A stretch of 64,000 nt of DNA from Solimonas terrae (GTDB lineage: Bacteria; Pseudomonadota; Gammaproteobacteria; Nevskiales; Nevskiaceae), in assembly GCF_011067135.1 (NCBI RefSeq), contig NZ_JAAMOW010000005.1, positions 1-64,000 on the forward strand, given 5' to 3'. A program made the position numbers and the translations under genes. Below, one piece after another: positions 6,354 through 55,229 of this stretch; within the stretch, counting starts at the first letter, position 1, and the number at the start of each line of letters is the position of its first letter. The notes under the pieces are model-generated. The model searched no databases. It was not told where the DNA came from and was given only the letters and a program-made list of their open reading frames with translations.

Positions 6354-7689
6354 AATCCATCGCCGGACCCGGCGTCGGTGCGGTCTTGGTCTTCAGCTTG
6401 TAGTTCGGCGTCTCGAGCTCGAGGTCGAGCTTGTAGAACAGGCGCGCCATCGACAATGCGATCTGGATTTCCGCGAGGCTCTTGCCGAGACAGGTATGCG
6501 GACCGCGGCCGTACGGCGAATAGACACCGGGCTGCATGTGTTCGGCGCGCGGTTTGGCGTAGCGGTCGATGTCGAACTTTTCCGGATGCGGCCAGTACTC
6601 GCCCATGAAGTGCGGCACCGAGGTGCCGACGTAGATCATCTCGCCTTCGTGAATCTGATGGCCTTCGAACAGGAAATCCTTGGTCGCCGTGCGCATCTGC
6701 GCGACCGCGATCGGATACAGGCGCATGGTTTCCATGATCGCGCCCTGCAGCGACGGAATGCGCTTGAGCAGATCTTCCTCCTCGATCGTGCCGCCGGCGA
6801 ACAGCGCGTCGACTTCCTCGTGCACGCGCTTGAGCACGTCCGGGTGCTTGAGCACCGTGTAGGTGATCGCCGCCGTGGTGTTGGCGACGGTATCGAGGCC
6901 GGCGACGTACGGCCCGGTCAGCGACACGATCAGGTCGCTGGCGGGCATCACGTCCGGCGTCTCGATGTGCGCCGCCATGATGTCGTCGATCAGGTTGCGG
7001 TCTTCCGGCCTGGTTGTCGCGTAACGTGCCTTGGCCTCGGCGATCATCTTGTAGCCGAGCTCGAACACGCGCGCCTTGGCTTTCTTGTAGACCGGCCGCT
7101 TGAGCAGGATCTTCGGCCGCTGCCGCGTCACCAGCACGTTGAGGATGTGCAGGATGGTCGTGCGGATGTCCTTGACGTATTCCAGCGGCGCCGCGCCGGT
7201 GAGGATGGTGCCGAGCTGGTCGACGACCATGTACTGCATGCCTTCGACCACCGGCACCAGCTGGCCGACCTTCCAGTCGCGCGTGAAGCAGCGATCGGTG
7301 ATCTCGATCAGCTCGTTGTAGCGGCCCTTGATCGATTCCTTCGAATAGCCGCTGCGCATGACGTCGCGCAGCTGCTTGTGGGTTTCGCCGTCCTCGCCGG
7401 TCAGCGTGCGCGTCGCGCCGTATTCGCCGACCAGGCCTTCCCAGAACTGCTTCGAGCGCAGGCATTCCTTGCCTTCGCGCGTGCCCATGAAGGTCGCCGC
7501 CTCGACGCCGGCGATCAGCACGTATTTCTGGCCGAGGATGCTGAGTCGCACCACCGGTCCGTACTGGCGATAGCAATCGACGAAGAACTGTGCCGGGCCT
7601 TTCACCATGCCGAACAGGCTGCCGACGAAAGGCAGCCCGCGAATGGTCGGCGTTTCACGCGGTGCGAGCGTCTGGGTTGCGGCGGTCAC
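6322..7689 (-). CDS. cytochrome P450
   Basis: Heme-thiolate monooxygenase, 455 residues, no obvious signal peptide. The heme loop is YSPYGRGPHTCLG, with Cys400 as iron ligand. The I-helix oxygen-activation motif is AGLDTVANT (263-271), and the K-helix ExxR is ETMR (320-323). I chose GTG at 7689 because AAGGA lies 5 bases upstream. An in-frame TTG at 7722 has no ribosome site. The substrate cannot be read from the sequence. No ferredoxin gene is adjacent; the nearest redox partner candidate is the fpr reductase at 20122. Its 3' end overlaps the convergent YbhN-like gene. Confidence 0.93.
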   Translation of the reverse strand: MTAATQTLAPRETPTIRGLPFVGSLFGMVKGPAQFFVDCYRQYGPVVRLSILGQKYVLIAGVEAATFMGTREGKECLRSKQFWEGLVGEYGATRTLTGEDGETHKQLRDVMRSGYSKESIKGRYNELIEITDRCFTRDWKVGQLVPVVEGMQYMVVDQLGTILTGAAPLEYVKDIRTTILHILNVLVTRQRPKILLKRPVYKKAKARVFELGYKMIAEAKARYATTRPEDRNLIDDIMAAHIETPDVMPASDLIVSLTGPYVAGLDTVANTTAAITYTVLKHPDVLKRVHEEVDALFAGGTIEEEDLLKRIPSLQGAIMETMRLYPIAVAQMRTATKDFLFEGHQIHEGEMIYVGTSVPHFMGEYWPHPEKFDIDRYAKPRAEHMQPGVYSPYGRGPHTCLGKSLAEIQIALSMARLFYKLDLELETPNYKLKTKTAPTPGPAMDFKVRVKGLRH

Positions 7690-43657: not shown

Positions 43658-45103
43658 TCAGTCCTTGAGTGAGACGGCAGTGGTCGCCGGTGCATCGGCA
43701 TTCCAGCCGCCGCCCAGCGATTTGTACAGTGCGACCAGCGAGGTCGCGGTCTGCGTGCGGGCCTGCGCGAGCTGGTCCTCGGCGTCGAGCTGGTTGCGTT
43801 CGGCATCGAGCACGTCGATGAAGTCGGCAGCGCCGGCCTCGAAGCGTACGCGCGCCAGCTGAACGGCGCGGTCGCTGGCCTGCACGCTCTCGTCGAGCAG
43901 GTCGAGCTTGCGGCGGTTGTAGCCGTAGGCGCTCAGCGTGTTCGAGGTTTCCTCGAGCGCGCGCAGCACGCTCTGCTGGTAGCGCGCGAGCGCGGCGTCG
44001 GCCTGCGCGCGGTGCTGCTGCACGCGGGCGTGCACGCGGCCGAGATCGAACGCTGCCCAGCTGATGCTCGGCCCGAACGCGTAGGTGCCGCTGCCGCTGT
44101 CGCCGACCGAACCCGGATGCGCGACCGAGTAGCCGACCTCGCCGCTGAAGCTGACGCGCGGGAAGTAGTCGGCGGCGGCGATGCCGATGCCGGCGGTCGC
44201 GGCCGCGAGCCGGCGCTCGGCGCTGGCGACGTCGGGGCGCCGGCGCAGCAGGTCGTCCGGCTGGCCGATGCGGACCAGGCGCGGCAGCGCCGGCATGTCG
44301 CCGGCGGCGCTGAGTTCGCCCTTCAGCGCTTCCGGCTCCAGGCCGCAGAGCACGGCGAGGCGATGCATGGCGTTGCTGATCGCGATCTGCTGATCCGGCA
44401 CGCGTGCGCGTGTGCTCGCCAGCTGTGCGCGGGCGCGCTGCTCGTCGAACTCGGTGCCGCGGCCGTACTTCAGGCGCGCTTCGGTGTACTGCAGCGTGCC
44501 GAGCTGGTTGTCGGCATTGCCCTGCGCGACCGCGTAACGCGCCTGTGCGCCGCGCAGCTCGAAGTAGGTGCGCGCGACTTCGGCGGCGACGCTGATCTGC
44601 GCGCCGTGCAGATCGGCGGTCAGCGCTTCTTCGTTGGCGCGGCTGGCTTCGTTCTCGCGACGCACGCGGCCGAACAGGTCGAGCTCCCAGACCGCGTCGA
44701 AGCCGGCGTCATACAGCTCCGTCGTCCGCGCGTCGCGGTCAAAGCCGGGCGCCTGGTCCCGGCTCTGCTTTGCCTTGGTGTAGCCGGCAGCGGCAGTGAC
44801 CGTCGGCAGGTAATCGAACACCGTTTCGCGACGCAGTGCGCGCGCCTGGTTGAGATTGGCGAGCGCGATGCGCAGATCGTGGTTGGCGGACAGCGCGCGC
44901 GTCTCCAGCGCGTCGAGTTCGGCGTCGCCGAACACCGACCAGAACGCGGCGCTCGGCTCGGCGCTGTCGTACAGCGAGGTCTCGATATCGGCGTGCGCGG
45001 CCGGCAGTTCGGGCTTCTGGTAATCGGGGCCGACCGCGCAGGCGGACAGCGCGAGCGCGGCGGCGGCGACGGTGGTGAGCGTGAAAGTGCGGAAGGCGTT
45101 CAT
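43658..45103 (-). CDS. RND efflux outer-membrane channel, NodT/OprM family
   Basis: The 481-residue outer-membrane lipoprotein has signal and lipobox LSAC (Cys22), followed by VGPDYQKPELPAA, the hallmark of this family. The TolC-like repeats contain YLPTVTAAAGYTKAK and DLFGRVRRENEASRANEEAL, and DYFPRVSFSGEVGY in the second half. It forms the exit duct for the adaptor and permease encoded upstream. Its ATG overlaps the stop of the ene-reductase gene by ATGA. Confidence 0.92.
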   Translation of the reverse strand: MNAFRTFTLTTVAAAALALSACAVGPDYQKPELPAAHADIETSLYDSAEPSAAFWSVFGDAELDALETRALSANHDLRIALANLNQARALRRETVFDYLPTVTAAAGYTKAKQSRDQAPGFDRDARTTELYDAGFDAVWELDLFGRVRRENEASRANEEALTADLHGAQISVAAEVARTYFELRGAQARYAVAQGNADNQLGTLQYTEARLKYGRGTEFDEQRARAQLASTRARVPDQQIAISNAMHRLAVLCGLEPEALKGELSAAGDMPALPRLVRIGQPDDLLRRRPDVASAERRLAAATAGIGIAAADYFPRVSFSGEVGYSVAHPGSVGDSGSGTYAFGPSISWAAFDLGRVHARVQQHRAQADAALARYQQSVLRALEETSNTLSAYGYNRRKLDLLDESVQASDRAVQLARVRFEAGAADFIDVLDAERNQLDAEDQLAQARTQTATSLVALYKSLGGGWNADAPATTAVSLKD

Positions 45104-46182
45104 GCGAGTGCGGGGGTGTCGAGGATGGCCGGCTCGTGGGCCGGCTGGTCGATGTAGCCGAGCGGCCCCGGTGTATAGAGCTGGCTGAAATCGAAATTCG
45201 CGAGCGGCGCGTTCCGGCGGAAGCGCTCGGCGAGATCGGGATTGGCGAGAAACGGCTTGCCGTAGCTGATCGCGTCGGCGCTGCCGTCGGCGATCGCGGC
45301 GTCGCCGCTGTCGCGGTCGAAGCCGCCGTTGCGGATCAGCACGCCGCGGAAGTGGCGACGCGCGATGTCGGCGAGGGCTCGCTCTTCCTCGGCGTCGTGC
45401 TGGTTGTGGCGCAGTTCGAGGAACGCGACGCTGCGTCGGGTCAGCTGATCGGCGACGTACTGCACGAGCGCGCGCGGATCGGAATCGGCGACGTCGTTGA
45501 ACGACACCAGCGGCGAGATCCGCACACCGACGCGGCCGGCGCCGAACGCGGCGATCGCCTGATCGACGACTTCGAGCAGTAGGCGCGCGCGCCGGTCGAG
45601 CGGGCCGCCGTAGGCGTCGCCGCGATCGTTGACGCTGTCGCGCAGGAACTGGTCGAGCAGATAGCCGTGCGCGCCATGGATTTCCACGGCGTCGAAGCCG
45701 GCCAGCCAGGCGTTCTCGAAGGCATGGCGGAACTGTTCGACGAGACGCGGCATTTCGCCGGCACTCAGGCGTCTCGGCGTGTCGAAGGCTTCGCCCTCGG
45801 CGCCGCGGATCGCGCGATCGGTCGACGAGACCGGCGGAATGCCGTCGTTCATCGCCGCGTGGCTGGCGCGGCCGGGATGAAAGACCTGCAGCGCGATGCG
45901 GCCACCGGCCGCGTGCACGGCGTCGGTGACGCGTTTCCAGCCGGCGACCTGCGCGGCGCTGTAGATGCCGGGCTCGGTCTTGTAGGCGCTGGTGCCGGGC
46001 GCCGACAGCGTCGCTTCGGCGATCAGCAGGCCGGCGCTGGCGCGTTGCGCGTAATGCGTGGCGATCAGTTCGCCGGGCACATGCGCGGCGTCGGCACGGG
46101 TGCGGGTCATCGGCGCCATGACGATGCGGTTCGGCAGCAGCAGGTCGCCGACGTGCAGCGGCGTGAACAAGGAGTGGGTCAT
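45100..46182 (-). CDS. old yellow enzyme family ene-reductase, NemA-like
   Basis: FMN flavoprotein, 360 residues, reducing activated C=C bonds with NAD(P)H. TIM-barrel motifs are PLHVGDLLLPNRIVMAPMTR, LQVFHPGRASH, and the substrate-binding pair in FDAVEIHGAHGYLLDQFL. DRGDAYGG and the FMN-phosphate loop YGKPFLANPD complete it. In E. coli nemA is also controlled by a TetR-family electrophile sensor (NemR). AGGGGA precedes the ATG. Translation is coupled to the channel gene. Confidence 0.92.
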   Translation of the reverse strand: MTHSLFTPLHVGDLLLPNRIVMAPMTRTRADAAHVPGELIATHYAQRASAGLLIAEATLSAPGTSAYKTEPGIYSAAQVAGWKRVTDAVHAAGGRIALQVFHPGRASHAAMNDGIPPVSSTDRAIRGAEGEAFDTPRRLSAGEMPRLVEQFRHAFENAWLAGFDAVEIHGAHGYLLDQFLRDSVNDRGDAYGGPLDRRARLLLEVVDQAIAAFGAGRVGVRISPLVSFNDVADSDPRALVQYVADQLTRRSVAFLELRHNQHDAEEERALADIARRHFRGVLIRNGGFDRDSGDAAIADGSADAISYGKPFLANPDLAERFRRNAPLANFDFSQLYTPGPLGYIDQPAHEPAILDTPALA

Positions 46183-46241
46183 GACGTTCCCCTGGTAGTG
46201 GTTCGGGTGGAAAGCGGGCGCGGCGAACCGCGCCCGCGGTT

Positions 46242-46583
46242 TCAGGCGGTCGCCAGGTGCGGTGCGACAAAGGCCGCGAGCTGCGACTTGGCCGCGGCGC
46301 CGACCTGGGTCGCCGCCAGCGCGCCGTCCTTGAACAGCATCAGCGTCGGGATGCCGCGGATGCCGAGCGAGGCCGGCGTCTGCGGGTTTTCGTCGACGTT
46401 GAGCTTGACGATCTTCAGCGCGCCGTCGTGCTCGGCCGCGAGCTGATCGAGCAGCGGCGCGACCATGCGGCATGGTCCGCACCATTCGGCCCAGAAATCG
46501 ACCAGCACGGGCTGCGTCTGGCTGGCGAGTTTCACGTCCTGTTCGAAGCTGCCGTCGCTGACGGCGGTAATCCGTTCACTCAT
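46242..46583 (-). CDS. thioredoxin
   Basis: The 113-residue protein has the active site WCGPC (residues 34-38) and a typical thioredoxin fold with PTLMLF and the cis-Pro (IPT). It is a second thioredoxin-like gene type, placed inside the efflux operon, so it is probably not the main housekeeping TrxA. GGAGAAC precedes the ATG. Likely keeps thiols of the operon's enzymes reduced (inference). Confidence 0.93.
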
Positions 46584-46619
46584 GGAAGTTCTCCGTTGAG
46601 AAGTTGGGGCGCGTGGCGC

Positions 46620-46901
46620 TTAGTGCGCGAGCGCGGGTTCGCCGTCGTCGACGACCACGTCGAGACGGCCGTGCAGGCTGACGATCTGCCGGCGCGCAGC
46701 CTCGAGCGCGTCGGCATCGCGACGCGTCAGGTGCAGCGCTTCGGCGCTGAGCCCTTCGAGCTGCAGGCGCAGCGCCGCGTCGACGGCTTTCGACCATTCC
46801 GGCGCGGCGACCACGACATGCAGACCTTGCTGTGCGAGCATCCGTGCGCGGGCGAAGTTGTCGCTGCGCTGCGCGCCGGTGACGAGTGCGACCTTGTTCA
46901 T
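46620..46901 (-). CDS. truncated SDR paralogue
   Basis: The 93-residue protein aligns with only the first third of the adjacent full-length SDR: MNKVALVTGAQRSDNFARAR against MKQKIALVTGGNRGIGLETS, then LAQQGLHVVVAAPE against LAAQGVHVIVAARD, and LHGRLDVVVDDGEP against KHGHLDILVNNAGI. The glycine-rich TGxxxGIG loop is destroyed and the NNAG motif is altered; the catalytic YxxxK region is absent. AGGAG is 7 bases before the ATG at 46901. It may be a decaying duplication or a retained partner domain. Confidence 0.7.
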   Translation of the reverse strand: MNKVALVTGAQRSDNFARARMLAQQGLHVVVAAPEWSKAVDAALRLQLEGLSAEALHLTRRDADALEAARRQIVSLHGRLDVVVDDGEPALAH

Positions 46902-46929
46902 CTGCATTCTCCTGTTGGGCGATGGGGCG

Positions 46930-47661
46930 TTACCACGGCAAGACCTCGCCGACATGCATCAGCTTGCCGCTCGGGCCGTCGGCGCCGAGCAGTGCCAGCG
47001 CGACGCTGGTGCGCGCGCCGTCCGGCACTTCCAGCTCGCCGCCGCCGTGATTCATGTCGGTCTTCACGTAGCCGGGATGCGCGGCATTGACCTTGATCGG
47101 CGTGTCGCGCAGTTCCCAGGCCAGGTGTTCGGTGTAGGCGTTGACCGCGCTTTTCGAGGCGCTGTAGGCCGGCACCGACTTGAACTCGTAGATCGGCGAG
47201 CCCGGCGTTTCGTGCATGCCGATCGAGCCGAGCAGACTCGACAGATTGACGATGCGCGCCGCCGGCGCCTTCTTCAGCAGCGGCAGGAAGGCCTGCGTGG
47301 TTTCGACCAGACCGAAGACATTGGTCTCGAAGATCCAGCGCCAGTCCTCGACCGGCTGGTGCGACGGCACGCCGTCCGGACTGCTGCGGATGATCCCGGC
47401 GTTGTTGACGAGAATGTCGAGGTGGCCGTGCTTTGTGCTGACGGTGTCGACCGCCGCCTTGATGCTCGCGGCATCGGTGACGTCGAGCTGCAGCGCTTCG
47501 GCGCTGCCGTTGTCGGCCTGCAGTTCGGCCACGGTGGCGGCGGCCTTCGCCGCATCGCGTGCAGCGACGATGACATGCACGCCCTGCGCGGCAAGCTGCC
47601 GCGAGGTCTCCAGGCCGATGCCGCGATTGCCGCCGGTGACGAGTGCGATTTTCTGTTTCAT
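46930..47661 (-). CDS. SDR-family NAD(P)-dependent oxidoreductase
   Basis: Short-chain dehydrogenase, 243 residues. TGGNRGIGLE binds the dinucleotide, NNAG (about 86-89) stabilises the fold, and YSASK carries the catalytic Tyr and Lys. Carbonyl-reductase-like (CBR1-type) spacing is suggested by IYEFKSVPAYSASKSAVNAY. AAGGAG lies 6-7 bases before ATG 47661; the in-frame TTG at 47676 is unlikely. It could reduce carbonyls generated from or with the ene-reductase's substrates (inference). It follows the permease stop by 11 bases. Confidence 0.92.
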   Translation of the reverse strand: MKQKIALVTGGNRGIGLETSRQLAAQGVHVIVAARDAAKAAATVAELQADNGSAEALQLDVTDAASIKAAVDTVSTKHGHLDILVNNAGIIRSSPDGVPSHQPVEDWRWIFETNVFGLVETTQAFLPLLKKAPAARIVNLSSLLGSIGMHETPGSPIYEFKSVPAYSASKSAVNAYTEHLAWELRDTPIKVNAAHPGYVKTDMNHGGGELEVPDGARTSVALALLGADGPSGKLMHVGEVLPW

Positions 47662-47672
47662 GTGATGCTCCT

Positions 47673-50600
47673 TCAATGTGCAGTGGCGGGCAGGGCCGCG
47701 GGTGCGGTGGTCGGCGCCTGGCGTCGACGCGCCACGAAGTTCTGCAGCGAGACATAGAACAACGGGGTGAAGAACAGGCCGAAGATCGTCACGCCGATCA
47801 TGCCGGCGAACACGGTGATGCCCATCGCCTTGCGCATTTCCGCGCCGGCGCCGGTCGCCATCACCAGCGGCAGCACACCGAAGATGAACGCGAACGAGGT
47901 CATCAGGATCGGCCGCAGACGCAGGCGGCAGGCTTCCAGCGCCGCCGCGATCGTCGACTTGCCTTGCGCTTCCAGCTCGCGGGCGAACTCGACGATCAGG
48001 ATCGCGTTCTTCGCGGCGAGGCCGACCAGCACGAACAGTCCGATCTGCGTGAAGATGTTGACCTCGCTATGGGTCAGGAAGATGCCGATCAGCGCCGACA
48101 GCAGCGTCATCGGCACGATCAGGATCACCGCCAGCGGCAGCACCAGACTCTCGTACTGCGCGGCGAGCACCAGGAACACCAGCAGCACGCCGAGCGGCAG
48201 CACGATCGCCAGCGCCTTGGCGGCGCCGATCTGCTGGAATGCCAGATCCGTCCATTCGATGTCGACACCGGGCGGCAGCGTTTCCTGTGCGACCCGTTCG
48301 AGCGCCGCCATGGCCTGGCCGGAGCTGAAGCCGGGCGCCGCGCCGCCGTTGACGTCGGCGCTCGGGAAGCCGTTGTAGCGCGACGCCATGTTGGCGCCGA
48401 AGCTCTCGCGCAGCGACAGGATCGAACCGAGCGGCACCATCTCGCCGTCGGCATTGCGGGTCTTCAGCAGCAGCACGTCGTCCGGGCGGCCGCGATAGTT
48501 CTCGTCGGCTTGCGCGATGACGCGGAACGTGCGCCCGAACTGGTTGAAGTCGTTGATGTAGTACGAGCCCAGATACACCTGCATGGTGCGGAACACCTCG
48601 TCGAGATCGATGCCGAGCTGCTTGACCTTGACGCGGTCGATGTCCGCATGCAGCTGCGGTGCGTTGACGTCATAGGTCGAGAACACGCCGGCGAGCGCCG
48701 GCGTCTGCCGCGCCTTGGCGACCAGCGCCTGCGTCATGTCGTAGAGCTGGGCCGGTCCGGCGTTGGTGTGATCCTCGATCTCGGCCTTGAAGCCGCCGGC
48801 AGTGCCGAGGCCGAGGATCGGCGGCGGCAGCACGGCGATCACCATCGCACCGTCGATCGCGCCGAGTTTCCTGTTGAGCTCGGCGGCGATCTGCGGACCG
48901 CGCAGGCCGGGCCGCTCGTCGAAATTCTTCAGCGGGAAGAACACGATCGCCGCGTCCGACGAACGCGTGAAGCCATTGATCGACAGGCCCGGGAACTGCA
49001 CGGCATGTTCGATGCCGCGCTGCTGCAGGCCGATCTCGCCGACCTGCTTGACGATCGCTTCCGTACGCTCGATCGACGAGCCGGGTGGCAGCTGCACGAT
49101 CGTTACCAGATAGCCCTTGTCCTGCGCCGGCACGAAGCCGTTCGGCGCCTTGCTGAAGCCGATGCCGGTCAGCACGACCAGGCCGCCGTAGACCAGCAGC
49201 CCGATGGTGCCGAGCCGCAGCAGCTTGCGTACGCCGCGCTGGTAACCGTTCGCACCGCTGGCGAACAGGCGGTTGAACGGCCGGAAGACCCAGCCGAACG
49301 CGCCGTCGATGCCGCGTTGCAGACCATCGGGTTTGGCGCCGTGCGGGCGCAGCAGCAGCGCGGCCAGGGCCGGCGACAAGGTCAGCGAATTGAACGCCGA
49401 GATCACCGCGGCGAACGCGATGACCAGCGCGAACTGCTTGTAGAACTGGCCGTTGAAACCGCCGACGAAGGCGGGTGGCACGAACACCGCGCACAGCACC
49501 AGCGAGATCGCGATGATCGGGCCGGCGACTTCGTCCATCGAGCGATGCGCGGCGGCGCGCGGACTCAGGCCGTCGGCGATGCCGCGCTCGATGTTCTCGA
49601 CGACCACGATCGCATCGTCGACGACGATGCCGACCGCCAGCACCAGGCCGAACAGCGTCAGCGTGTTGATCGAGAAGCCGAACGCCGCCATCGCCGCGAA
49701 GCTGCCGATGATCGCCACCGGCACGGCAACGATCGGGATCAGCGCCGCGCGCCAGGTCTGCAGGAACAGGATCACGACGATCACGACCAGCAGCAGCGCT
49801 TCGAGCAGGGTTTCGATCACGGCGTGGATCGACTGGCGCACGAACACGGTCGGATCGTAGATGATCGAGTAGTCGACCCCCTGCGGGAAGGTCTTCTTCA
49901 GCTCGGCCATCGTCGAACGCACGTTGTCGGCGAGCTGCAGGGCGTTGGCGCCCGGCTGCAGGAACACCGGCAGCGCGACCGCCGACTTGTTGTCGAGCAG
50001 CGAGCGCAGGGCATATTCGCCAGCGCCGAGTTCGATGCGCGAGACGTCGCCGAGCCGCGTGACTTCGCCGTCGGCACCGGTCTTGATGACGATGTCGCCG
50101 AACTGCTTTTCGGTCTGCAGGCGGCCGCCCGCGTCGATCGCCATCTGGAAGGCCGGATTGTCCTTCAGCGGTGGTGCGCCGATGCTGCCGGCTGCGACCT
50201 GTACGTTCTGTTCGCGCACCGCGGCGATCACCTCGTCGACCGTCAGATTGCGCGCCGCCAGTTTCTGCGGATCGAGCCAGAGGCGCATTGCGTAGTCGCC
50301 GGAGCCGAAGATGCGCACGTCGCCGGCGCCCGGCAGTCGCGCGAGACGGTCACGCACCTGGATGACCGCGAGATTGCGCAGATACAGGCCGTCGTAGCGG
50401 CCGTCCGGCGAATACAGATGGACGACCATCGTCAGGTTCGGCGAGCTCTTGCGCGTGGTCACGCCGGCGGCGCGCACTTCCTCGGGCAGACGCGGCAGCG
50501 CCTGCGCGACGCGGTTCTGCACCTGCACCTGCGCGCGGTCGATGTCGGTGCCGAGCTTGAAGGTCACCGTCAGCTGCAGCGTGCCGTCCTGCTGCGCCTG

Positions 50601-50846
50601 CGAGTTCATGTAGAGCATGTCCTCGACACCGACGATTTCCTGTTCCAGCGGCGTCGCGATCGTGTCGGACAGCACCTGCGCGGTCGCGCCCGGATAGGAG
50701 GCGGTGACGACCACCGTCGGCGGCACGACTTCCGGGTATTCGGCGATCGGCAGGCGGAACACCGCGAGCAGACCGAGCACGAACACCACGAACGACAGCA
50801 CGCCGGCGAAGATCGGCCGTTCGATGAAGAAATGGGTGAGTTTCAT
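47673..50846 (-). CDS. RND multidrug efflux permease, HAE1 family
   Basis: The 1057-residue inner-membrane proton-driven pump has twelve helices in two halves and two large periplasmic loops. It starts MKLTHFFIERPIFAGVLSFV. The proton relay Asp pair is Asp410-Asp411 (VGIVVDDAIVVVEN) and the Lys is in GLAAKNAILIVEFA. GFAVGMVVD-like and GIRGIP-type motifs appear as LPLVMATGAGAEMRKAMGIT. Length matches AcrB/MexF (about 1050). Nine bases separate it from the adaptor. Confidence 0.96.
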   Translation of the reverse strand: MKLTHFFIERPIFAGVLSFVVFVLGLLAVFRLPIAEYPEVVPPTVVVTASYPGATAQVLSDTIATPLEQEIVGVEDMLYMNSQAQQDGTLQLTVTFKLGTDIDRAQVQVQNRVAQALPRLPEEVRAAGVTTRKSSPNLTMVVHLYSPDGRYDGLYLRNLAVIQVRDRLARLPGAGDVRIFGSGDYAMRLWLDPQKLAARNLTVDEVIAAVREQNVQVAAGSIGAPPLKDNPAFQMAIDAGGRLQTEKQFGDIVIKTGADGEVTRLGDVSRIELGAGEYALRSLLDNKSAVALPVFLQPGANALQLADNVRSTMAELKKTFPQGVDYSIIYDPTVFVRQSIHAVIETLLEALLLVVIVVILFLQTWRAALIPIVAVPVAIIGSFAAMAAFGFSINTLTLFGLVLAVGIVVDDAIVVVENIERGIADGLSPRAAAHRSMDEVAGPIIAISLVLCAVFVPPAFVGGFNGQFYKQFALVIAFAAVISAFNSLTLSPALAALLLRPHGAKPDGLQRGIDGAFGWVFRPFNRLFASGANGYQRGVRKLLRLGTIGLLVYGGLVVLTGIGFSKAPNGFVPAQDKGYLVTIVQLPPGSSIERTEAIVKQVGEIGLQQRGIEHAVQFPGLSINGFTRSSDAAIVFFPLKNFDERPGLRGPQIAAELNRKLGAIDGAMVIAVLPPPILGLGTAGGFKAEIEDHTNAGPAQLYDMTQALVAKARQTPALAGVFSTYDVNAPQLHADIDRVKVKQLGIDLDEVFRTMQVYLGSYYINDFNQFGRTFRVIAQADENYRGRPDDVLLLKTRNADGEMVPLGSILSLRESFGANMASRYNGFPSADVNGGAAPGFSSGQAMAALERVAQETLPPGVDIEWTDLAFQQIGAAKALAIVLPLGVLLVFLVLAAQYESLVLPLAVILIVPMTLLSALIGIFLTHSEVNIFTQIGLFVLVGLAAKNAILIVEFARELEAQGKSTIAAALEACRLRLRPILMTSFAFIFGVLPLVMATGAGAEMRKAMGITVFAGMIGVTIFGLFFTPLFYVSLQNFVARRRQAPTTAPAALPATAH

Positions 50847-50855
50847 GGACCGTTC

Positions 50856-52079
50856 TTAGTTGATGGCGATCGCGTCGTCGGCGACGGCGTCGCGCGCGTC
50901 GGCGGTCGGCTGCGGCGCCGGATCGCTCTTCGCGGCGACCACCACGCCCGGGTGGACGCGCTGCTGGCCGGCGACGATCACGCGTTCGCCCGGCTTGACG
51001 CCGTCGGTGACGACACGCAGCCCGTCGTGCTCGCCGCCCAGCGTCACGGCGCGGTACTGCACGGTGTTCCGGTCATCGACCACGTAGACGAACTTCTTGC
51101 TCTGATCGGTGCCGATCGCGCGCTCGTCGAGCAGGGTCGCGGCATAGCGGCCGCTGCCGAGCAGCTGCACGCGCGCGAACAGGCCCGGCGTGAAGTGGCC
51201 GTCGGGATTCGGCAGCACGGCTCGGGCGCGGATCGTGCCGGTCTGCGGATCGAGCGCGTTGTCGAGGAAGTCGATGCTGCCGGCGTGCGGATAGCCCTCC
51301 TCGTTGGCGAGGCCGACGAACACCGGCAGCTGCTTGTCGCGTTCGCTCGGGCGTTCGCCGCGGCTGGCCTGTGCGGCGTACTTCAGATAGCTGCGCTCGT
51401 CGCCGTCGAAGTAGACATAGATCGGATCGACCGACACCACCGAGGTCAGCACGGTCTGGCCGGCGACCACGTAGTTGCCGGCGGTGATCTCGGCGCGCGA
51501 GACGCGACCGTCGATCGGCGCGGTGACGCGCGTGAAGCCCAGATCGAGCTGCGCGGCTTCGACGTTGGCGCGTGCGGCGCGCAGGCCGGCGGCGGTCTGG
51601 CCGCGATTGCTGACGCGGGCGTCGTATTCCTCGCGCGAGATCGCATGCGCGGCGAGCAGGTTTTCGGCGCGGGTCGATTCGCTGGCGGCGAGCTGGTTCT
51701 GCGCGACGGCGCGGGCGAGTTCCGCCTGTGCCTGATCGAGCCGGGCCTGATAGGGACGAGGATCGATCTGGAACAGCAGATCACCCTTCTTCACCAGCGA
51801 GCCTTCGTCGAACGCGACGCGGTCGATGTAGCCGGCGACGCGCGGCCGCAGTTCGACGCGCTGCGTTGCGGCGAAGCGGCCGGTATAGGTGTCCCAGTCG
51901 ACGATCTGCTGCTGCACCGCAGCGCGCACGGTGACCTCGGGCGCGGGCGGGGGCTGGGTCGCGTCGGCCGAAGCGTCGCAGCCGGAAAGGCCGGCGCTGG
52001 CGGCGACCAGCAGGGCGATCGGCAACAGGCTCAGCGTAGAATTGCGGAAGCGGGTGCGGGGGGCGGCGGTGCGGATCAT
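50856..52079 (-). CDS. RND efflux periplasmic adaptor
   Basis: The 407-residue lipoprotein has lipobox LSGC (Cys34), a lipoyl hairpin (RVAGYIDRVAFDEGSLVKKG), an alpha-helical hairpin (about 95-170), and beta-barrel and membrane-proximal domains (VYFDGDERSYLKYAAQ). It bridges the permease and the outer-membrane channel. GGGAGA precedes the ATG at 52079. First gene of the operon, with about 140 bases of leader below the TetR operators. Confidence 0.94.
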   Translation of the reverse strand: MIRTAAPRTRFRNSTLSLLPIALLVAASAGLSGCDASADATQPPPAPEVTVRAAVQQQIVDWDTYTGRFAATQRVELRPRVAGYIDRVAFDEGSLVKKGDLLFQIDPRPYQARLDQAQAELARAVAQNQLAASESTRAENLLAAHAISREEYDARVSNRGQTAAGLRAARANVEAAQLDLGFTRVTAPIDGRVSRAEITAGNYVVAGQTVLTSVVSVDPIYVYFDGDERSYLKYAAQASRGERPSERDKQLPVFVGLANEEGYPHAGSIDFLDNALDPQTGTIRARAVLPNPDGHFTPGLFARVQLLGSGRYAATLLDERAIGTDQSKKFVYVVDDRNTVQYRAVTLGGEHDGLRVVTDGVKPGERVIVAGQQRVHPGVVVAAKSDPAPQPTADARDAVADDAIAIN

Positions 52080-52196
52080 CTGGTGTATCTCCCGAAAAGC
52101 GCGGTGGCGGCGGGGGCCGGCCATGGCGGGTTGTTGCCTGCTGCGATCGCCGGTCCGGCTTGACGTCGGGACCGAAACGATTGAAGCTGTACGTGT

Positions 52197-52212
52197 GTTA
52201 CCGGTCAGTAAC
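52197..52212. promoter_or_regulatory. TetR operator, pump side, distal copy
   Basis: GTTACCGGTCAGTAAC, an imperfect inverted repeat. It is one of four copies of this 16-mer type in the window. It lies 27 bases (start to start) from the second copy at 52224. Confidence 0.8.
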
Positions 52213-52221
52213 AGTTCGCAT

Positions 52222-52250
52222 ACGTTACCGACCGGTAACAGCCGCGTCAA
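52222..52250 (-). promoter_or_regulatory. candidate promoter of the pump operon
   Basis: On the minus strand, TTGACG (52250-52245) and TAACGT (52227-52222) are spaced 17 bases. The spacer contains the operator at 52224-52239. The -10 hexamer is identical to that of the LpxR-like gene promoter at 54265. Confidence 0.5.
52224..52239. promoter_or_regulatory. TetR operator, pump side, promoter copy
   Basis: GTTACCGACCGGTAAC, inverted repeat with arms GTTACC and GGTAAC. It falls in the spacer and touches the -10 of the predicted pump promoter, so repressor binding would block RNA polymerase. It also lies 42 bases before the tetR start, so autoregulation is likely. Confidence 0.8.
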
Positions 52251-52280
52251 GGAGTTTTTTGTGACAACCGAGGTAGCGTG

Positions 52281-52961
52281 ATGAAAGAAGCCAAATCGCC
52301 GAGCGCCGCGCCCTGTCCGGAAGGCGGTACGCGTGTTCGCGATCGCATCTTCCGGACGGCCCGCGAACTGTTCTATCGCCAGGGCATCCGTGCCGTTGGC
52401 GTGGACGCGATCGCCTGTGGTGCCGGCACCAACAAGATGAGTTTCTACCGGAGCTTCGGGTCCAAGGACGAACTCGTCGCCGAGTGTCTGCGTGCGCAGG
52501 TTTCCGAGTTCTGGGAACACTGGGACGCCTCGATTGCCCCGCATGCCGGTGATCCGCGGCGTCAGATCGAAACGGTGTTCGAATCGTCGATGTCGAAATC
52601 CTGCGGTGCCGATGCCTGCGGCTGTCCGCTCAGCAACGCCGCGGTCGAACTGCGCGAAGCCGAGCATCCCGGCCATCAGGTGATCCGCGAATACAAGGCC
52701 GAAGTGCGCCGGCGCTTGCGCGCGCTGGCACGCGATGCCGGCGCCAGCGATGCCGAGGCGCTCGGCGATGCGCTGATGCTGCTGCTCGAAGGCAGTGCGA
52801 TGACGCGCCTGACCTTCGCCGGCAACGGCGGACCCATCGTCAATTCGCTGGGCGCCGTGCACACACTGCTCGACGCCTATCTGCCGGCGCGCAAGGCAGC
52901 TGCGGCGGCCAAGGCTGCGAAACCGGCGAAGAGCGCCAGACTCGCGAAAGCAACATCCTGA
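52281..52961 (+). CDS. TetR-family repressor of the efflux operon
   Basis: The 226-residue regulator has the N-terminal HTH (TARELFYRQGIRAVGVDAIA, then GTNKMSFYRSFGSKDELVAE) typical of TetR. The ligand domain contains a Cys cluster, CGADACGC, with Cys108, Cys113 and Cys115, plus Cys12, Cys46 and Cys69. It ends with an Ala/Lys tail (KAAKPAKSARLAKATS). It diverges from the adaptor gene across 201 bases that hold two operators. Cysteines could sense electrophiles, as in NemR (inference). ATG 52281 follows AGG; the in-frame GTG 52278 is less likely. Confidence 0.9.
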   Translation: MKEAKSPSAAPCPEGGTRVRDRIFRTARELFYRQGIRAVGVDAIACGAGTNKMSFYRSFGSKDELVAECLRAQVSEFWEHWDASIAPHAGDPRRQIETVFESSMSKSCGADACGCPLSNAAVELREAEHPGHQVIREYKAEVRRRLRALARDAGASDAEALGDALMLLLEGSAMTRLTFAGNGGPIVNSLGAVHTLLDAYLPARKAAAAAKAAKPAKSARLAKATS

Positions 52962-52983
52962 TTCCCCGCTCGCGGGCCGCATG

Positions 52984-53014
52984 AAAAAGGCCGGCGCGCG
53001 ACGCCGGCTTTTTT
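52984..53014. terminator. bidirectional terminator between tetR and the LpxR-like gene
   Basis: AAAAA then GCCGGCG (52990-52996), loop CGCGA, CGCCGGC (53002-53008) and TTTTTT. The A-run on the left gives a T-run on the minus strand, so it can serve both convergent genes. Confidence 0.88.
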
Positions 53015-53037
53015 GTGTCTTCAGCGCGCGGCGCCGG

Positions 53038-54189
53038 TCATAAATCGTGCGACAGCACCAGACCGCCCCAGATCAGCGAGCGGTCGCCGGGCTCGGGCTT
53101 GAGCTCCGAAGTCTGGTAGCGCATCACCCACGACAATCGGTATTCGCCGGTGATCTGCGCGGTGACGCCGAGCCAGGCTTCGCCGATCAGCGGCCGCACC
53201 TCGTGATAGCTGTATTCCAGATCGCTGCCGCGGAACTGGCCTTGCAGGAAGCTGTTGTAAAGGCGTGCGTGCGCCTTGATGCCGCCCCAGACATACAGCT
53301 CGCGCACATCCGGGTGCAGCATGCTGCCGCCGGTCGCCGGCGCCGGTTCGGCGATGTACTCGACGCGATCCGGCGGGCCGGCCCACCATGGCGTGTTGAT
53401 GCGGCCCCAGCGCCATGACAGCGCCGCACTGCCTTCGGTCAGATAGCCGATGCTGGCGGCGACCGCGCTCTTGAATTCGTAGTGGGTGTGGTCGATCGAT
53501 GCGCCGGCGAGCTGCAGATCCTGGCGGGTCAGCGTGTAGCGGAAGGTCGGCTCGCCGCCGCTGGAGATCTGGTGATCCCAGCCGCGCGGTTTGCGCGCGC
53601 CGATCATGCTGTGGAACGCGTCCTGGAATTCCGGCACGACATGCAGGCCGAGCACGCCGATCGACAGGCTGCTGTGATAGACCGGCCCGCTGCCGTCGCC
53701 GATGTAGCTGCGGCCGTTCGCGACGTAGAGCAGACTCGCGTAGGGACGATCGCCGGCACGCACGTCGGCCTCCTTGATGGTGCCCGGTGTGAATGCCAGA
53801 CCGCCGAACTGCTGGCTGTGCAACTGGAACCCGATATCGACCGCCGCAGGCAGGAACAGGGCATCGAGCAGGCCCAGCGGCGCATCCGCCGACAGCCAGT
53901 TGCGCTGCGCGCGCCGGCCGGCCAGCGTGACCGCGATACCACCGGTGTAGTCCTCGTCGCGCTGCACCGGTGTCAGGCTGTCGTTGTCGAAATAGAAGGT
54001 CCAGCCGGCATCCTCCCTCTCGTTGCCCCAGGCATCGACCGGCGCGCCGGGTGGTGCGGCGGCGCTCGCCGGTCCGGTCGGCAGTGCCAGCAGCAGTGCG
54101 GCGAACACGGCGACTCGCGGTGCAGCGGCGCTACGGCTGCGGTCCATGCGGCCGGGTGCATCGAAAACAGCAGGGATTCTCATGTCCAT
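53038..54189 (-). CDS. LpxR-like lipid A deacylase (DUF2219)
   Basis: Outer-membrane beta-barrel, 383 residues, with a signal peptide (cut near ASAAA). Family blocks are WTFYFDNDSLTPVQRDEDYT with GGIAVTL, LHSQQFGGLAFTP, and AGDRPYASLLYVANG, which carry the Asn/Asp/Thr/His-type active-site region of LpxR. LpxR removes the 3'-acyloxyacyl chain of lipid A. GGAG is 7 bases before ATG 54189; the in-frame upstream start at 54258 would sit on the operators. Two TetR operators precede it, tying it to the pump regulon. Confidence 0.85.
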   Translation of the reverse strand: MDMRIPAVFDAPGRMDRSRSAAAPRVAVFAALLLALPTGPASAAAPPGAPVDAWGNEREDAGWTFYFDNDSLTPVQRDEDYTGGIAVTLAGRRAQRNWLSADAPLGLLDALFLPAAVDIGFQLHSQQFGGLAFTPGTIKEADVRAGDRPYASLLYVANGRSYIGDGSGPVYHSSLSIGVLGLHVVPEFQDAFHSMIGARKPRGWDHQISSGGEPTFRYTLTRQDLQLAGASIDHTHYEFKSAVAASIGYLTEGSAALSWRWGRINTPWWAGPPDRVEYIAEPAPATGGSMLHPDVRELYVWGGIKAHARLYNSFLQGQFRGSDLEYSYHEVRPLIGEAWLGVTAQITGEYRLSWVMRYQTSELKPEPGDRSLIWGGLVLSHDL

Positions 54190-54240
54190 GGCATCGCTCC
54201 GGGAGGCGGCGCCGGAACTCGGTGGCGCCCGCCTCGGAAA

Positions 54241-54256
54241 GTTACCGATCGGTAAC
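54241..54256. promoter_or_regulatory. TetR operator, LpxR side, distal copy
   Basis: GTTACCGATCGGTAAC, a perfect 16-bp palindrome and the best copy in the window. It is 52 bases before the LpxR-like start and 26 bases (start to start) from the second copy. Confidence 0.85.
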
Positions 54257-54264
54257 ACGCGGCG

Positions 54265-54294
54265 ACGTTACTTACTGGTAACATTTACTGTCAA
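54265..54294 (-). promoter_or_regulatory. candidate promoter of the LpxR-like gene
   Basis: On the minus strand, TTGACA (54294-54289, a perfect -35) and TAACGT (54270-54265) are spaced 18 bases. The operator at 54267-54282 fills the spacer. The geometry mirrors that of the pump promoter. The remaining gene-free sequence to 54527 shows nothing else I recognise. Confidence 0.55.
54267..54282. promoter_or_regulatory. TetR operator, LpxR side, promoter copy
   Basis: GTTACTTACTGGTAAC, imperfect inverted repeat with intact outer arms GTTAC and GTAAC. It overlaps the predicted -10 and spacer. Confidence 0.75.
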
Positions 54295-54527
54295 GCATGA
54301 CGGGACGAACGGCCGGTCCGTCGCAGCCTGTTGCGGCGGGTCGGTGCGCCGGCGTCGACGGCCGCCGCACGTCGGGCGATGTCTTCAGCGGATCCGGCGG
54401 TCGGCCGCGCTTCCCGGCGACGCAGGGAAATTCGCGCGCGGATGCCGTACGCGTGTGCCCGCATCGCCGATGCGCCGTGCAATCATCTAAACTAGCGCGC
54501 CCGAACCGACCGCTACGCCCTCGACAC

Positions 54528-54569
54528 ATGACGCAGCACCACCCGAAATCCTGGCGACGCTGGCACTGA
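54528..54569 (+). CDS. trpL: trp leader peptide upstream of trpGDC
   Basis: A 13-residue [16 protein letters not shown], has two Trp codons (54552-54554 and 54561-54563) and its stop lies 79 bases before trpG. Together with the peptide before trpE, this implies that both halves of the split Trp pathway are attenuated separately, as known for Pseudomonas. TAAACT (54488-54493) could be the -10 of its promoter. Confidence 0.78.
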
Positions 54570-54585
54570 GTCTTCCGCCACCGCC

Positions 54586-54602
54586 GATGCGCGCCGCGCA
54601 TC
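54586..54602 (+). promoter_or_regulatory. hairpin in trpG leader
   Basis: GATGCGC (54586-54592), loop GCC, GCGCATC (54596-54602), a perfect 7-bp stem 16 bases after the leader stop. Stem length and loop size equal those of the trpE leader hairpin (32148). No T-run follows. Confidence 0.5.
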
Positions 54603-54648
54603 GCTGCCGCCACTGTGCGGCCGTACCGCCAAACATCCGGGATTCACC

Positions 54649-55229
<581 letters not shown>

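Follow-up and report, generated by a model that had tools for sequence, protein, structure and literature searches.

A local TetR-family repressor with paired palindromic operators, predicted to control both an RND pump/ene-reductase operon and an LpxR-like gene in Solimonas terrae

In Solimonas terrae, one TetR-family repressor probably represses both a divergent RND pump/ene-reductase operon and a gene for an LpxR-like outer-membrane protein, with a second repressor gene, tetR2, probably lost and an inducer expected to free both targets. The stretch analyzed, hereafter the window, comprises positions 1 to 64,000 of contig NZ_JAAMOW010000005.1 (assembly GCF_011067135.1), and its relevant features are listed in Table 1. 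In the proposed mechanism, a single repressor would bind four copies of one palindromic operator, one dimer per promoter sitting in the −35/−10 spacer and overlapping the −10 element and a second dimer sitting just past the start, such that the paired dimers would sterically keep RNA polymerase off the pump-operon promoter and the lpxR promoter. The tetR gene itself would probably be repressed too, autoregulation being likely. An inducer, possibly thiol-reactive or quinone-like, would then release TetR and let both targets rise together. In four Solimonas relatives, lpxR faces its own TetR paralog, tetR2; here, the remaining TetR would serve both promoters. That one TetR acts on both had been put forward in an earlier note on this DNA, and the proposal gains support because the sites score well with a matrix built from relatives only, the pair is conserved beside TetR, the lpxR layout recurs in five further genomes, and the pair occurs at lpxR without an adjacent TetR both in the window's own genome (G000) and in G025.

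Table 1. Features of the window that bear on the predicted TetR regulon
Feature	Coordinates	Strand	Basis or remark
Putative operon, seven genes	43658..52079	-	family scans
Outer-membrane channel	43658-45103	-	in putative pump operon
NemA-like ene reductase	45100-46188	-	best model N-ethylmaleimide reductase, 312.4 bits, below its cut-off of 403 bits
Thioredoxin	46242-46583	-	in putative pump operon
Truncated SDR, ~93 aa	46620-46901	-	downstream of full SDR within pump operon
SDR	46930-47661	-	in putative pump operon
RND pump permease	47673-50846	-	above RND_permease_1 cut-off
MFP adaptor	50856-52079	-	best models MexE and OqxA, both below cut-offs
Operator O1, pump promoter	52197..52212	.	1 mismatch; 28.0 bits (relatives-only matrix); just 3' of predicted start site
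Predicted pump-operon promoter	52222..52250	-	TTGACG (52250-52245)-17-TAACGT (52227-52222)
Operator O2, pump promoter	52224..52239	.	0 mismatches; 27.8 bits; in −35/−10 spacer, overlaps −10
TetR-family repressor, 226 aa	52281..52958	+	PF00440, 52.3 bits
Terminator-like hairpin	52990..53008	-	between convergent tetR and lpxR
LpxR-like outer-membrane protein, predicted lipid A 3'-O-deacylase	53038..54189	-	PF09982; start codon predicted
Operator O1, lpxR promoter	54241..54256	.	0 mismatches; 29.1 bits; just 3' of predicted start site
Predicted lpxR promoter	54265..54294	-	TTGACA (54294-54289)-18-TAACGT (54270-54265)
Operator O2, lpxR promoter	54267..54282	.	1 mismatch; 22.0 bits; in spacer, overlaps −10

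The four operators are 16-bp palindromes of the GTTACYGRYCRGTAAC type, found at the positions given earlier, and, with mismatches counted against GTTACCNNNNGGTAAC, they are the only sites in the 64-kb window with at most one mismatch, whereas 0.03 such sites per 64 kb are expected by chance (60 order-1 Markov simulations). No enrichment was seen in the window at up to three mismatches (9 found versus 6.58 expected), and the signal therefore lies in the near-perfect sites. The start-to-start spacing, 27 for the pump pair and 26 for the lpxR pair, agrees with that first reported. In the GTTACC...GGTAAC pattern proposed with it, the central four bases are constrained rather than free, being GRYC in most of the 36 sites from relatives. 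The weakest of the four window sites is O2 of lpxR, whose central bases deviate.

The genome-wide scan with the 16-mer suggested in the earlier note was run on the window's genome (4.42 Mb, 20 contigs, 99.67% complete) and yielded 34 sites with at most two mismatches. Six of these have at most one mismatch, compared with approximately two expected by chance in 4.42 Mb at the simulated rate, and four of the six are the window's. When scored with a matrix made from 36 sites of relatives and none from the window (training minimum, 21.3 bits), the four window sites came out on top, at 22.0-29.1 bits; the other 30 reached at most 18.2 bits, under the training minimum, and none of them has another site within 50 bp that exceeds 8 bits. 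No further regulon member was found in the genome among sites with at most two mismatches. The best of the others, G000:C15:367180, is a single site of 18.2 bits; within its locus (L001, G000:C15:365680-368695), this perfect-arm site, GTTACCTCCCGGTAAC, occupies positions 1501-1516 and adjoins an inverted repeat that resembles a CIRCE heat-shock element.

Both predicted promoters carry an identical TAACGT as the −10 element, with one operator filling the spacer and the other lying just past the predicted start. This is the placement described before, together with the identical −10, except that the operator overlaps the −10 element instead of adjoining it. Because the TAAC of each −10 is also the end of an operator, it is mainly the −35 element that counts as independent promoter evidence. 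A sigma-70 promoter scan of 51900-54700 returned 0 promoters, TAACGT having only 3/6 consensus bases and falling below the threshold of the scan. Among relatives, 15 pump/SDR promoters were examined and a TTGA..-(16 to 18)-TA...T layout was seen in all but those of G018 and G029, hence in 13, a set from which poorly matching or degenerate promoters, those of G036 and of the SDR operon of G015, had been left out. A like layout with a 17-base spacer is found in all five of the relatives' lpxR promoters that bear the site pair; the window's lpxR promoter differs from these five in pair spacing (26 versus 29-30) and in promoter spacer (18 versus 17). The idea that the palindromes upstream of lpxR arose by chance, which has the base rate and nothing more in its favor, is ruled out by the simulations, by the matrix scores, and by the recurrence of the pair, in a similar promoter layout, at lpxR of five other genomes, and we give it practically no credence.

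Since the training loci had been picked for having sites, conservation was tested on other loci. In 16/16 held-out close loci (L127-L142), TetR has beside it two or more sites scoring no less than 21 bits, and the pair precedes RND pump genes or SDR/ene-reductase genes; 14 of these loci come from genus g3 and two from g9, both of which are represented in the training set, so that they are not independent of it. Among 11 other TetR loci (L031-L039, L042, and L072), mostly of TetRs with 41-53% identity and including one broken gene, two such sites were found in 0/11 and one site in 1/11. These counts bear on whether a regulator other than this TetR reads the palindromes, as could be argued given that TetR binding is itself a prediction. 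The pair, however, tracks TetR through the held-out close loci and not through the other, mostly more distant ones, which makes such a regulator very improbable.

The genes that follow the pair vary among relatives. At L070, L074, L129, L130, L133, L137, and L138, all from other genera, TetR and the pair precede SDR/ene-reductase genes, and no pump gene was matched within the 13 kb covered at L070 and L074 or the ~3.6 kb covered at the other five. In contrast, the window has pump and reductases in one putative operon, whose co-transcription is predicted from spacing and strand. A short SDR match lies in a place like that of the truncated SDR in G001, G003, and G010. Moreover, a third operator copy, ~300 bp from the pair and nearer tetR, is present at L069 (6563), L132 (2217), and L134 (1382).

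The repressor has a TetR N-terminal helix-turn-helix (PF00440, with a cut-off of 24 bits), and its C-terminal domain scores under the curated value for the LmrA/YxaF-like family (PF21993, 20.2 bits versus a cut-off of 27). It has the layout of a local RND-pump repressor, being divergent from the RND operon, with palindromic operators in between, and conserved in relatives. The only match to it in the genome at E ≤ 1e-30 is itself, the next having an E of 1.1e-4. Against NCBIfam, it obtained 11 hits, none of which is to a NemR model; the best, at 31.5 bits, is to another equivalog with a cut-off of 250. Between the convergent tetR and lpxR lies a terminator-like hairpin, one of two such sites in the scanned region versus 1.4 expected from shuffles, and it is therefore weak evidence for a terminator.

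With respect to sensing, Cys115 is kept in 21/22 TetRs and Cys108 in 15/22. Because of these two cysteines and the reductases in the operon, it may be guessed that the signal is perhaps a thiol-reactive electrophile or a quinone-like compound. DitR and AltR are TetR repressors able to sense via cysteines, according to the portions of their reports consulted (PMC9342713, PMC13178969). A Gly-Cys is also found at the corresponding place in the three remote solved TetRs whose alignments were examined, and Cys115 may therefore be structural.

The LpxR-like protein scores 120.2 bits with PF09982, above the curated cut-off of 26, and has no NCBIfam hit. Phmmer with its single sequence retrieved no PDB chain, and a nine-row profile of relatives matches Salmonella LpxR (3fid). 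As described in part of PMC6260217, Salmonella LpxR has H122 as the catalytic residue, N9 and D10 as calcium ligands, and E128 as a possible partner of the His. N68, D69, and H192 of the window protein are invariant in 9/9 aligned rows; H192 is aligned by the profile to the catalytic His of 3fid, and N68/D69 are paired with N9/D10 by motif only, in a stretch outside the 3fid alignment. The two proteins share the PF09982 family and the aligned His, and differ in that the likeness is distant (profile E, 6.4e-6) and that the position of E128 is not Glu here. The LpxR-like protein would be expected to strip lipid A of its 3'-acyl chains. In Yersinia, lipid A acylation is reportedly governed by temperature, and no TetR is named in the excerpt of that report (PMC3486919).

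An lpxR match is present in 18 of the 58 family genomes, 8 of them close (54-100% identity, window included) and 10 distant (23-32%). Of the eight close orthologs, six have the site pair upstream (G000, G001, G003, G007, G008, and G025). For the other two, in G006 and G036, scanning of stretches upstream gave no site above 0 bits, and sites are found in 0/11 distant LpxR loci (L116-L126, up to 1.5 kb of flank); the lpxR link is therefore lineage-specific. In four Solimonas genomes, G001, G003, G007, and G008, the second repressor gene tetR2 faces lpxR across the pair, whereas G000 and G025 carry the pair with no TetR of this group next to lpxR. For G025, no TetR was matched within the 12-kb lpxR stretch, and the one genomic TetR at E ≤ 1e-30 lies on another contig. 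In L064 (G006:C14), lpxR, with no operator in the scanned stretch upstream of it, instead faces what appears, by eye from the DNA at ~6800-7100, to be a LysR-type regulator.

All four tetR2 rows fall in a single clade (100/96), in which that of G001 sits on a long branch. In a tree built from the joined alignments of four proteins, the window's genome groups with the tetR2-bearing G001 (98.2/97), and G003, G007, and G008 stand apart from these two (86.5/81). The RND tree alone does not resolve G000, G001, and the other three; the four joined alignments, and lpxR alone, do resolve the order. tetR2 is absent from the window's genome, which offers no other close TetR, the next match being the weak one mentioned above. 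Its loss in the window's lineage is probable, being favored by parsimony because a single loss is a shorter account than gaining it twice at the same place. A search for a tetR2 relic 3' of 54282 turned up nothing convincing, tblastn giving only weak hits (best E 0.002, 30% over 66 residues, 54496-54657). By blastn, 54479-54657 aligns with G001 over 182 bases (E 6e-19), other hits being no better than E 0.001, and the matching stretch of G001 follows tetR2 and extends into trpG; given that the tblastn hit falls inside this post-tetR2 stretch, it was taken as chance. In addition, this group of TetRs has a third and more distant member in G001 (G001:C11:394578-395141, 38% identity, E 3.5e-33).

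A recent loss of tetR2 could also mean that the lpxR operators are relics, the remaining TetR binding them too weakly and lpxR being unregulated or constitutive. This would fit with tetR2 facing lpxR in four relatives, and with the drifted core of O2 at lpxR and a pair spacing unlike that of relatives. However, O2 of G001 shows a similar core drift despite the presence of tetR2, and the sites of G025 are strong with no such TetR adjoining lpxR. When G000 is compared with G001, the operators and the −35 element are still recognizable, and the intervening bases differ in length and sequence. Moreover, a putative recognition stretch, AGTNKMSFYRSF, is common to TetR1 and TetR2 of G003, G007, and G008, with one residue changed in TetR2 of G001, which makes an exchange of sites plausible. 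Relic operators are thus considered unlikely, and control of both promoters by the one remaining TetR is the preferred reading, under which the window may hold a regulon merged through the loss of the tetR2 copy. A fuller version, in which this loss merged two regulons so that a cysteine-bearing, electrophile-answering TetR joins RND export, reduction (ene reductase, SDR, and thioredoxin), and LpxR-mediated lipid A remodeling, is offered tentatively, as a possibility that is rather less than evenly balanced. If true, a precise operator and a small regulon would tie the efflux and reduction of toxicants to outer-membrane lipid remodeling under one TetR. The series of Solimonas genomes with and without tetR2 amounts to a natural experiment in how a duplicated repressor disappears while its sites persist, and the history of repressor gain and loss is traceable in this system.

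Several known systems resemble parts of this arrangement. In the E. coli NemR-nemRA-gloA system, governed by an electrophile/bleach repressor, a TetR likewise has a NemA-like ene reductase among its targets, which are here likely ones; an inverted-repeat operator in the promoter is shared as well, as would be the cysteines predicted to be available for sensing (PMC9342713, PMC13178969, in part). It differs in that the window has tandem 16-bp operators and likely targets comprising an RND pump operon plus an LpxR-like gene. DitR-mfsBC of Stenotrophomonas maltophilia is similar in that a TetR represses an efflux operon via several operator boxes, of which one lies between −35 and −10 and another covers the start site, and two cysteines of DitR are needed for sensing; the DitR operator, CATACnnnnnGTATG, is different, there are three boxes and an MFS pump, and no lipid A gene is among the targets named in the part of the report consulted (PMC9342713). 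In the open PMC literature searched, no TetR-controlled LpxR was recognizable from titles or the starts of abstracts. SmeT-smeDEF resembles the predicted system in that a local TetR, by binding between the divergent genes, represses an RND operon together with the regulator, as far as the excerpt of PMC3128119 goes; one pseudopalindromic region is described there, in contrast to the two sites per promoter and the likely non-pump target in the window. As a local TetR regulon, the proposed system is of a known kind, and it is the second target, lpxR, that is unusual.
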